From contig SBFU01000419.1 of the NCBI GenBank assembly GCA_006227785.1, forward strand, positions 1 through 10,403: a DNA stretch of 10,403 nt, written 5' to 3'. The notes beneath the pieces were generated by a model that was given only the letters and a program-made list of their open reading frames with translations, did not search any database and was not told the DNA's origin. The position numbers and the translations under genes were made by a program. Shown in pieces: positions 4,246 to 6,651 of this stretch. How positions within the stretch are numbered: position 1 is the stretch's first letter; every line of letters starts with the position of its first letter. Source of the DNA: Burkholderiales bacterium. GTDB taxonomy: Bacteria; Pseudomonadota; Gammaproteobacteria; Burkholderiales; Burkholderiaceae_C.

Positions 4246-5196
4246 TCAGGTGTTGGGCGCCGTCTTGGCGCTCCAGACCATGGTGACCACCAGCACGCCC
4301 AGCACCACCCCCAGCGACACCGCCACCGGGATCTTGTAGATGTCGATCAGCATCATCTTGCTGCCGATGAACACCAGGATGATGGCCAGCCCGTAGTTGA
4401 GCAGGTGAAAACGGCTGGCCGCCGCCTGCAGCAGGAAGAACATGGCACGCAGGCCCAGGATGGCGAACACGTTGCTGGTCAGCACGATGAACGGGTCCTT
4501 GGTGATGGCAAAGATCGCCGGGATCGAATCGACCGCGAAGATCACGTCGGTCACGCCCACCAGGGCCACCACCATCAGCAGCGGCGTGGCGATCTTCACC
4601 CCGTTCTCCACGGTCCAGAACTTCTCGCCGTCGTAATGGCGGCTGACCGGCATCACGCGGCGCAGCAGCTTGAGCGCCGGGTTGTCATCCAGGTCGCTGT
4701 CCTCGTCGGCGCCGCGCCACATCTTGATGCCGGTGTAGATCAGGAAGGCGCCGAACAGGTACAGGATCCAGTGGAACTGGCTGAGCAACCAGGCGCCCAT
4801 CACGATCATGATGGTGCGCAGCACGATGGCGCCCAGGATGCCGATCATCAGCACCCGCTTCTGGAACGCCGGTGGCACCGCAAAGTAGGTGAAGATCAGC
4901 AGGAAGACAAAGATGTTGTCGACCGCCAGGCTTTTCTCGATCAGGTAGCCGGTGAGGAACTCCAGCGCCTTCTCGTTGGCCACCGCGGTCGAGCCGCTGA
5001 TGTCGCGCACCGCCCACCACAGCAGGGCATTGAAGACCAGGCTCACCATCACCCAGGCGACCGACCACCACAGGGCCTCCCGCACACCCACCTCGTGGGC
5101 ACCCTGCTTCTTGAGCACGGCGAAGTCGACGAAGAGAGCGACCAGAACGAAGGCCACGAACGTGGCCCACAGCCACAGGGGTGCGATGGTGTGCAA
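4246..5196 (-). CDS. alx: TerC/Alx-family integral membrane protein, putative Mn2+ exporter
   Basis: This multi-pass TerC-domain protein resembles E. coli Alx along its whole length. 'FLTGYLIEKSLAVDN' (80-94; Glu88, Asp93) and 'VTDVIFAVDSIPAIFAIT' (215-232; Asp217, Asp223) carry the conserved acidic membrane residues expected to bind metal. 'DPFIVLTSNVFAILGLRAMF' (234-253) and 'YGLAIILVFIGSKMMLID' (268-285) are also typical, and an acidic loop (about 163-171) lies between. The frame is open up to ATG 5307, but those extra 37 codons run through the riboswitch. A TTG at 5196-5194 gives a 316-residue protein whose N-terminus (MHTIAPLWLW) aligns with that of Alx, and AAGG sits 8 nt before it, so TTG is chosen. 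Alx and other TerC proteins are linked to Mn2+ export at the inner membrane. The Mn riboswitch in the leader supports that role here. Confidence 0.92.
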   Translation of the reverse strand: MHTIAPLWLWATFVAFVLVALFVDFAVLKKQGAHEVGVREALWWSVAWVMVSLVFNALLWWAVRDISGSTAVANEKALEFLTGYLIEKSLAVDNIFVFLLIFTYFAVPPAFQKRVLMIGILGAIVLRTIMIVMGAWLLSQFHWILYLFGAFLIYTGIKMWRGADEDSDLDDNPALKLLRRVMPVSRHYDGEKFWTVENGVKIATPLLMVVALVGVTDVIFAVDSIPAIFAITKDPFIVLTSNVFAILGLRAMFFLLQAAASRFHLLNYGLAIILVFIGSKMMLIDIYKIPVAVSLGVVLGVLVVTMVWSAKTAPNT

Positions 5197-5201
5197 GATG
5201 A

Positions 5202-5252
5202 AGACCTTGAAGCGATGGAGGCGGTTGACGGGCAAACACCCTGCAAGGTCTC
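5202..5252 (-). promoter_or_regulatory. Shine-Dalgarno / anti-Shine-Dalgarno pair of the TerC/Alx leader
   Basis: On the transcript, CAAGGUCU (5209-5202), which contains the AAGG Shine-Dalgarno (5208-5205) for the TTG start, is perfectly complementary to AGACCUUG (5251-5244). A G-U pair extends the helix to nine pairs. The intervening loop is 34 nt. AGACCUUG is also the 3' strand that closes riboswitch helix P1 with CAAGG (5390-5386). The two pairings exclude each other, so metal-stabilised P1 would free the ribosome-binding site. The complementarity is directly visible; the switching mechanism is inferred from translational control known for the E. coli alx leader. Confidence 0.65.
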
Positions 5253-5390
5253 GCGGAAACCGGATGCATACCCGGCCCGGGGCATCCGGTGACCAGGCTC
5301 CCGGCACGGGAAACGGTCACGTCCTGACGGATGCTCCGCCCAAGGGTGGGCCGTTCGACGGCCGCCGCAGCGGGCTGGCTACTCCCCTTG
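5244..5390 (-). promoter_or_regulatory. yybP-ykoY manganese riboswitch (aptamer) upstream of TerC/Alx
   Basis: The conserved parts of the class are present in order on the minus strand. The P1 5' strand CAAGG (5390-5386) runs straight into loop L1 GGAGUAG (5385-5379). Loop L3 GCGAGA (5254-5249) runs into the P1 3' strand CCUUG (5248-5244), giving five P1 pairs. This is the same arrangement as the Lactococcus yybP aptamer (AAAGG-GGAGUAG ... GCAAGA-CCUUU). Between them lie a 6-bp hairpin (5349-5363), a helix around 5290-5320, and an 8-bp perfect helix pairing 5260-5267 with 5282-5289. The class binds Mn2+ and controls metal exporters such as alx and mntP. It starts about 7 nt after the expected transcription start and ends 47 nt before the TTG start codon, fitting translational control. 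Confidence 0.9.
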
Positions 5391-5403
5391 ACGGGAATCT
5401 GGC

Positions 5404-5432
5404 ATTGTCGGTCGGCACGTGTTTCGTGGCAA
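5404..5432 (-). promoter_or_regulatory. Sigma70-type promoter of the TerC/Alx riboswitch transcript
   Basis: Read on the minus strand, TTGCCA (-35, 5432-5427) and GACAAT (-10, 5409-5404) are separated by exactly 17 nt. Each hexamer matches four of six consensus positions. The expected transcription start is near 5397, just upstream of riboswitch P1 at 5390, so the aptamer would occupy the 5' end of the mRNA. The leader before the TTG codon would be about 200 nt. Confidence 0.7.
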
Positions 5433-5478
5433 GCAGAAGGACCCTTCGGTTTTTCGGGAAGAACAGGTCAGGTCCGGC

Positions 5479-6651
5479 TCAGACCACGTTGCGCTCGACC
5501 AGCGGCCGGCCGTCCAGCACCCGCTGCCAGCCGAAGTCGCTCAGATCCAGGGTGGCAAAGCGCCCCTCGGTGACCAGCTCGGCCAGGGCCCGGCCAATGG
5601 CTGGCGACTGCTGCAGGCCATGCCCGCTGAAACCGTTGGCAAACAGCAGGTTGGCCACGTCCGGGTGGGCGCCGAGGATCACATTGGCGTCCAGCGTGTT
5701 CATGTCGTAGTGACCGGCCCAGCTGCGCTGCACCCGCAGCGCCTCGAAGCCGGGTACGCGGGCGGCCAGCAGCGGCCACAGCACGTCCTCGAACAGCCCG
5801 TGCTGCACCTCGAAGTCGTGGCACTCCGGGTCATGGTCCGGCTGCGGTGCGATGCCGCAGATGAAGCCCGCGCCCTCGGGCCGGAAATAGGCGCCACTGG
5901 GGTCGATCACCAGCGGGCAGGCCGGCAGCGAGGCGGGCGACGTCACGTAGAAAACGCAGCGCTTGCGCGACTGCACCGGCAGATCCAGTCCGGCGCTGCG
6001 CGCCAGCGCGACAGCGCCGGTGCCGGCGGCATTGATCACCGTGCCACAGGCCAGGCGGCTGCCGTCGGCCAGCGCGACGCCGGTGATCCGGCTGCCCTGG
6101 CGCTGCAGGGCCGTGACCCGTGCCTGTCGGTACTGCACGCCCAGCGAACGGGCCTTGCGCCGGAACGCCTGCATGAGGGCCCAGGCATCGAACCAGCCTT
6201 CGCCCGACAGGCCCAGAGAGCCGCCGGCCAGATCGTCCGTGTGCAGCCAGGGAAAACGCCGGGCCAGTTCGTCCGGGTCCAGCAGGACCACATCGGCGCC
6301 CAGGTGGCGCTGCGTCGCGTGGTTTTCGCGCAGCACCGGTGCGCCCGCCGGCGTGGCCAGGAACAGGTAACCCCCCTCATGAAAGCCCACATCCGGCGGC
6401 TGGCCGTCCACCGACAGGTGCTCTGGCAGGTGGCGCAGGAACGCGGTGCCGAACTGCGACATGGCGATGTTGCCGGGGGTCGAGAACTGGTGCCGGATCG
6501 AGGCAGCCGAGCGCGCAGTGGCGCAGAATTCGTAGCCCAGGTCCTGCTCCAGCACCAGCACACGCCCCCTGAAACCGGGCGACGAAGCCAGGAAGAAGGC
6601 GGTGGCGCTGCCGACGGCGGCGCCACCGATGATGATCACGTCAGGGTTCAT
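5479..6651 (-). CDS. FAD-dependent oxidoreductase, DAO family (FOXRED1-like)
   Basis: The protein has 390 residues from ATG 6651. The N-terminal Rossmann motif for FAD is 'DVIIIGGAAVGSATAFFLAS' (4-23), with the acidic residue for the adenosine ribose in 'VLVLEQD' (31-37; Glu35). 'CATARSAASIRHQFSTPGNI' (43-62), 'VINAAG' (205-210) and the C-terminal 'ANGFSGHGLQQSPAIGRALA' (338-357) are typical of the DAO superfamily. The latter, with 'GHYDMNTLDANVILG' (313-327), recalls the FOXRED1 branch more than sarcosine or glycine oxidases. Such enzymes oxidise amines or amino acids with FAD; the substrate here is unknown. The frame continues upstream of ATG 6651, but the glycine motif begins right after it, so this start is chosen; a CACAAT -10-like hexamer lies at 6682-6677. 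It is divergent from pepP and read in the same direction as the TerC/Alx gene, which has its own promoter. Confidence 0.88.
   Translation of the reverse strand: MNPDVIIIGGAAVGSATAFFLASSPGFRGRVLVLEQDLGYEFCATARSAASIRHQFSTPGNIAMSQFGTAFLRHLPEHLSVDGQPPDVGFHEGGYLFLATPAGAPVLRENHATQRHLGADVVLLDPDELARRFPWLHTDDLAGGSLGLSGEGWFDAWALMQAFRRKARSLGVQYRQARVTALQRQGSRITGVALADGSRLACGTVINAAGTGAVALARSAGLDLPVQSRKRCVFYVTSPASLPACPLVIDPSGAYFRPEGAGFICGIAPQPDHDPECHDFEVQHGLFEDVLWPLLAARVPGFEALRVQRSWAGHYDMNTLDANVILGAHPDVANLLFANGFSGHGLQQSPAIGRALAELVTEGRFATLDLSDFGWQRVLDGRPLVERNVV

Follow-up and report, generated by a model that had tools for sequence, protein, structure and literature searches.

A probable translational Mn2+ switch upstream of a Hydrogenophaga-like alx gene, in which one strand could pair with either the aptamer or the Shine-Dalgarno region

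How is the alx gene in this stretch of DNA controlled, and does the strand that would close a metal-sensing aptamer upstream of it also cover its ribosome-binding site? The window, by which we mean the whole stretch of 10,403 nucleotides analysed here, carries on its minus strand a TerC/Alx-family gene preceded by a leader in which one short strand has two possible partners. The source assembly is Hydrogenophaga-like (67.57% complete), and the best named relatives are Hydrogenophaga, with 85-87% protein identity. The frame downstream of the leader matches TIGR03718 ("R_switched_Alx") with 407.8 bits against a cut-off of 246.4, and also PF03741 (Pfam TerC), so that a Mn2+ homeostasis gene lies directly under the leader; the family search of alx used the longer frame 4246-5307. 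The TTG at 5196 corresponds to residue 1 of the relatives, and AAGG ends 8 nt 5' of it. In the 99 upstream regions compared below, the aligned start codon is ATG in 86, GTG in 3 and TTG in 1, the window; the remainder are offset or cut.

One strand with two partners

The features of the leader are collected in Table 1. The strand AGACCTTG (5251-5244) can form eight Watson-Crick pairs with CAAGGTCT (5209-5202), followed by one G-U wobble (5252/5201), and part of it is also the partner of CAAGG at the 5' end of the aptamer. The original prediction had given these coordinates and the strand, and had proposed that CAAGG and the Shine-Dalgarno (SD) strand compete for one and the same partner; the coordinates and both pairings are exact to the base. 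It had further equated the 3' strand of P1 with the anti-SD, and here a distinction has to be drawn. The equation is right for the P1.1 part, but the AGA of the anti-SD lies outside P1.1 and forms the 3' side of loop L1. Invasion by the SD would therefore reach into the metal-binding loop as well as the switch helix. One strand is common to the helix that the ligand would stabilise and to the helix that covers the SD, as expected for a translational ON riboswitch.

Table 1. Features of the alx leader and gene in the window (positions of the forward strand)
Feature	Position	Strand	Basis or remark
Sigma70-like promoter TTGCCA-17-GACAAT	5404..5432	-	9/12; mean in shuffles 0.0
P1.1 5' strand CAAGG	5386..5390	-	Partner 5248-5244
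L1 5' box GGGGAGUAG	5379..5387	-	GGGGAG[TC]A[GA] in 81/99 upstream regions
P3 arm GCAUCCG / L3 UCAGGAC (5327-5321) / P3.2 / CGGAUGC	5282..5334	-	P1.1-forced fold, relatives
Putative Mn2+-contacting A of L3	5325	-	Compare UCA41/ACA48 in the cited passages of PMC6754395
L1 3' strand GAGA	5249..5252	-	AGACC in 78/81 leaders, partly by construction; X. oryzae 3' half GAGACC...
L1/P1.1 3' strand and anti-SD, AGACCUUG	5244..5251	-	Exact pairing, folds, relatives
Apical hairpin of the predicted OFF structure	5220..5240	-	Degenerate here (GGUGUU...AACCGCC); relatives GGUGUU...AACACC
SD strand CAAGGUCU, mimic of the P1.1 5' strand and complement of the L1 3' strand	5202..5209	-	Pairing, folds, relatives
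TerC/Alx-family Mn2+ exporter gene	4246..5196	-	TTG start, placed by relatives; TIGR03718, PF03741

Within the window, the exact 8-mer CAAGGTCT occurs only at 5202-5209 on the minus strand and at 5244-5251 on the opposite strand; 0.16 occurrences are expected, and 3 of 200 shuffles reach 2. As proof, such single-window statistics are not decisive. The anti-SD:SD sequestration in the window is 0.87, and 10 or 11 of 20 spacer shuffles that keep the SD core equal or exceed this value, which makes the window typical of its own shuffles. Chance pairing is easy because ACCUU is inherently complementary to any SD. The window by itself is weak evidence, and it is conservation in relatives that lifts the pairing above chance.

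In 72 of the 80 leaders examined, GGGGAG is preceded at a distance of 22-20 nt by the start of a -10-like hexamer, defined by A at position 2, T at position 6 and a match at four or more of the six positions; this count was made without a shuffle control. From this position, the transcript should begin just before P1.1, and we infer a start about 7 nt 5' of that helix. The prediction that no terminator lies between the aptamer and the start codon is borne out, since no intrinsic terminator-like site was found in 5150-5560.

Aptamer signatures and predicted folds

The comparison covers 109 alx loci (79 + 30), reduced to 99 by the removal of 10 flagged duplicates and including the window (L082). 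One unflagged duplicate (L085 = L027) is present among the 99 and also among the 81 that have an L1 box within 330 bases. Of the 18 others, L033, L070 and L108 start inside the gene, L097 is cut by a contig end, L014 is degenerate, and in L060 and L109 the aptamer is outside or off the pattern. Neither the pattern nor the covariance model R1 described below finds an aptamer upstream in 11 alx relatives (L043, L046, L050, L054, L055, L058, L078-L080, L110 and L111). Starts were shifted by hand in L068 (15 bases), L072 (6 bases) and L085 (3 bases). Alignment A1 holds 53 of 63 less similar leaders and omits L017, L022, L038, L040, L057, L075, L081, L093, L098 and L106, among which L075 and L081 are divergent. 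Two aptamers are degenerate, with the L1 box, L3 and AGACC altered: L013:1230-1371 (Comamonadaceae), where the SD is also without AGG, and L014:1327-1460 (Hydrogenophaga), which retains AGGUCU. They are natural candidates for decayed riboswitches.

The leader in the window contains CCGG as well as the L1 5' box and the L3 loop UCAGGAC with its xCA adenosine, and its GAGACC runs on into the P1.1 3' strand. The L1 5' strand GGGGAGUA and the L1 3' strand AGACC close on P1.1, and UCAGGAC, with the invariant xCA adenosine, is left as an internal loop of 7 nt in the P1.1-forced fold. The cited passages of PMC6754395 give GAGACCAGGGAU as the last 12 nt of L1/P1.1 in Xanthomonas oryzae, and ACA48UACU and UCA41AUUC as L3 in X. 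oryzae and Lactococcus lactis, respectively; they describe P1.1 of X. oryzae as a weak switch helix, one that resists strand invasion when stabilised by Mn2+. The presence of AGACC in 78 of the 81 leaders is partly by construction, because the leaders were chosen by patterns of that kind, all 81 carrying one of five permitted 3' patterns. CGTCA played no part in the selection and occurs in 78/81 as well.

The Rfam model RF00080 has no match in the window, at the locus of the window in its genome, or in 17 relatives. This silence says little, because the E. coli alx leader, our positive control, was missed as well, so we rejected Rfam as a yes/no test. The copy of that leader in our set (L112:5377-5478) has no RF00080 match even at E 10, though the control search did match elsewhere in E. 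coli. The model R1, built from 53 relatives with the window left out, scores the window at 74.9 bits (E 1.6e-17) and the E. coli alx leader at 22.2 bits (E 3.8e-4), and it matches in 33 of 40 genomes of the genus, that of the window among them. R1 does not match the E. coli mntP riboswitch at E 10 and is not suited as a general detector. Taken with the published signatures, these data suggest that the upstream RNA is a yybP-ykoY-type riboswitch, with Mn2+ as its probable ligand by analogy with the family.

The inner architecture was approached by folding. For the four-way junction (P1.2/P2/P3/P4), arms P2, P3 and P4 are predicted when P1.1 is forced; the free fold differs. Whole-aptamer consensus folding, tried with a MAFFT alignment of 53 sequences, recovered P1.1 only, and the inner architecture therefore rests on single-sequence folding and the published signatures.

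Folding of the leader with and without P1.1 had been proposed as a check of the exchange, and its two halves came out differently. In the free ensemble, the SD is predicted to be sequestered: the anti-SD:SD pairs have probabilities of 0.45-0.68, and P1.1 has 0.0. The fold with P1.1 forced is less stable by about 10 kcal/mol, a figure that excludes Mn2+ and tertiary energy, and it leaves the SD mostly paired: the four SD bases are unpaired with probabilities of 0.73, 0.16, 0.02 and 0.04 (RNAfold), so that three of four are mostly paired elsewhere and the ON state is not cleanly predicted. A hairpin between the two strands brings anti-SD and SD together in many relatives and is degenerate in the window. 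It has the form GGUGUU/AACACC in 41 of 81 leaders, and other stems stand in its place in four Polaromonas leaders (GGGACGC/GCGUCUU) and in L042 (CGGAAGUU/AACUUCCG). When the anti-SD:SD helix is forced, UCAAGGG (5391-5385), which includes most of the P1.1 5' strand, finds a second partner in CCCUUGG (5346-5340) of the P2 arm; in the window this predicted pairing is possibly a misfold.

Conservation beyond the Shine-Dalgarno core

The bases that follow the AGG of the SD are the complement of the AGA of L1. Position +1 is U in 57/67, +2 is a pyrimidine (C or U) in 58/67 and +3 is U in 49/67, where the 14 of 81 leaders without AGG in the SD window are omitted; without the window and the duplicate L085, the counts are 55, 56 and 48 of 65. 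At other upstream AGGs, U follows in 75 of 388, and the full AGGUYU, found in 41/67 at the SD, occurs in 27/388 (the background is 388 with the L1 box removed and 463 with it kept in). Pyrimidines are frequent across the spacer as a whole (sites +6 to +8). Among aptamer-less orthologues with AGG, 2 of 7 have AGGUY, and the tree-aware comparison of aptamer presence with AGGUY comes down to 2 to 4 independent pairs, which gives it no power.

The length of the pairing was compared with several nulls. Runs of at least 7 anti-SD:SD pairs are observed in 56 of 81 leaders, as against 28 under a null that preserves the purine run. Runs of at least 8 pairs through CC are found in 41/81, where shuffling the SD windows gives an expectation of 0.6, or of 17.5 if the purine run stays intact. 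Since the purine-run null is already high, a share of the effect is mere SD pairing with ACCUU. The probability that the anti-SD pairs with bases among the 22 nt directly 5' of the start is 0.9 or higher in 59/81 leaders, compared with 21.35 in spacer shuffles that preserve the SD core. Sequestration is below 0.5 in 14/81, including Hydrogenophaga pseudoflava L008 (0.21). In the leaders named Rubrivivax, Aquabacterium, Methylibium, Roseateles and Ideonella, the aptamer is present but the anti-SD:SD helix mostly is not, and the same is true of L008. The mutually exclusive pairing that had been predicted is thus supported by its recurrence in most Hydrogenophaga- and Polaromonas-type alx leaders examined, by the published signatures and by the predicted sequestration of the SD.

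Whether the three strands covary, as the original prediction would have it, can be asked mainly at the outer P1.1 positions because the AGA part hardly varies. In the 53 aligned aptamers, the outer P1.1 pair is C-G in 31, A-U in 15 and unpaired in 6. The triple formed by the 3' strand, the SD and the P1.1 5' strand is G/C/C in 29 of 67 and U/A/A in 6 of 67, four of these six being Polaromonas. The six rows, in which all three change together, are suggestive. The 3' strand pairs with the SD at the outer position in 48 leaders compared with 37.8 after permutation (p 0.003), and at the next position in 38 compared with 26.2 (0 of 1000 permutations as high); in both cases the permutations ignore relatedness. 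Columns 0, 2, 9 and 12 have no excess of pairs by permutation, and two other varying columns do. On the protein tree, the outer-strand test is reduced to 1 to 3 independent pairs, too few to give it power, and it cannot decide. At SD site +2 the tree has 21 changes of base but 6 of paired state, and at site -1 14 but 5; at sites +1 and +3, by contrast, almost every change disrupts pairing (7 changes of paired state for 8 of base, and 15 for 16). Individual leaders include L031, with UUC in the 3' strand and GAAGG at the SD, and L063, with AGACU opposite AGUCU.

Proposed switch, alternatives and known systems

We consider it very probable that alx is governed by a translational Mn2+ ON switch in which the L1/P1.1 3' strand passes directly from the aptamer to the SD and back. 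What the sequences show is the strands, conserved among relatives, together with the aptamer signatures, the alx gene and no terminator that could be recognised. The OFF fold is a computed one; analogy with the family suggests that the ligand is Mn2+ and that it turns expression on at the level of translation. Without Mn2+, AGACCUUG would leave the aptamer and pair with CAAGGUCU around the SD, and this pairing would close a hairpin and hide the ribosome site. Mn2+ would dock L1 on L3, and P1.1 would be stabilised with the anti-SD kept in the aptamer. The SD would then be freed and the Mn2+ exporter made.

The closest comparison is the E. coli alx leader (yybP-ykoY, NC_000913.3), which precedes a gene of the same family and has L1 GGGGAGUAA, L3 CGUCAUUACG, CCGG and GUGAGACCUUG. 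Its P1.1 3' strand also has an alternative partner, of 10 pairs (AGACCUUGCC/GGCGAGGUCU), but this partner comes immediately after the aptamer and is distinct from the SD, whereas in the window the main partner is the SD itself. The apparent SD of E. coli alx, upstream of the annotated start, lies about 55 nt beyond that partner and could still form 6 pairs (CCUUGC/GUAAGG). In the yybP-ykoY riboswitches of X. oryzae and L. lactis, according to the cited parts of PMC6754395 and PMC9190785, a Mn2+-stabilised P1.1 switch helix likewise competes with a downstream strand; there the competitor is a terminator hairpin, while in the window it is the SD and no terminator was found. The E. coli mntP riboswitch, which R1 misses, resembles the window in GGGGAGUAGCC and GGCGAGACC, and its downstream platform is, by eye, unrelated. 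For mntP, the cited part of PMC9603457 states that Mn2+ turns on translation initiation.

The genus also contains YjbE-type TerC riboswitches (L152-L154) in which the P1.1 3' strand CUUC and the next bases pair with the SD UCUGGAG, over 7 pairs with 1 G-U in L152 and L154 and over 9 with 3 G-U in L153. Their register differs from that in the window: the partner of the SD lies 3' of AGACC, and L1 is not involved. Among the 20 stretches L144-L163, to which these three belong, aptamers like Mn2+ riboswitches stand before YjbE-type TerC genes and one other gene, with differing platforms. That other gene we take to be MneA-like from its sequence features; it has no family match.

Three other explanations have to be weighed. 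First, the switch may sense pH or another signal along with Mn2+, as in E. coli alx and mntP. This would be compatible with the translational Mn2+ switch, and we rate it as possible though rather unlikely. In the cited part of PMC9603457, maximal activation of the mntP riboswitch needs both alkaline pH and Mn2+, and alkaline shock is reported to trigger a response of the alx riboswitch; nothing in the leader itself points to pH, and its L3 and L1 signatures are those of a Mn2+ site.

Second, the same riboswitch could act mainly on transcription, through a Rho-dependent or unrecognised terminator, with hiding of the SD only aiding Rho by excluding ribosomes. The cited passages on X. oryzae and L. 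lactis report antitermination through the same P1.1 helix, and, in a general model, Rho sites can be exposed on untranslated leaders. We nevertheless regard a mainly transcriptional mode as unlikely, since there is no intrinsic terminator in the interval searched and the partner of the anti-SD is the SD itself in most leaders, which would be superfluous in a purely transcriptional design. RNA-seq of Vibrio parahaemolyticus, in the cited part of PMC13274385, has coverage without a drop at the predicted mneA and terC riboswitches, and this fits control beyond termination in that species.

Third, that the complementarity is incidental, any SD resembling a partner of ACCUU, and that the aptamer acts otherwise or not at all in this strain, would agree with the high SD-preserving nulls (28/81 with at least 7 pairs; a window typical of its shuffles), with a P1.1-forced fold that does not free the SD and with the degenerate hairpin and TTG start of the window, but we find it very improbable, since the conserved U, Y and U (57, 58 and 49 of 67) lie outside the usual SD, the first U follows other AGGs in only 75/388, and 56 and 41 of 81 leaders reach runs of at least 7 and 8 pairs where 28 and 17.5 are expected.

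Our preferred reading thus remains the translational Mn2+ switch. The type of sensor is already known, and the leader is a clear new example of one wiring, which we do not claim to be unpublished. Because RF00080, as searched, misses the window, 17 relatives and the E. coli alx leader, annotation based on it may understate the Mn2+ regulon. As a translational output for a widespread metal riboswitch, the wiring would be compact, and the conserved loop of the metal site would itself contribute some of the anti-SD bases. More tentatively, and with somewhat less than even confidence, we suggest that the SD of Hydrogenophaga and related bacteria came by evolution to imitate the P1.1 5' strand and, at the same time, the partner of loop L1, such that a single strand of eight bases is exchanged directly between the metal-binding loop and the ribosome site and the binding of Mn2+ and of the 30S subunit is reciprocally coupled. 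If so, the Mn2+-competent aptamer would be favoured whenever a ribosome occupies the SD, and the letters around the ribosome site would be set by the conserved sequence of the metal site.
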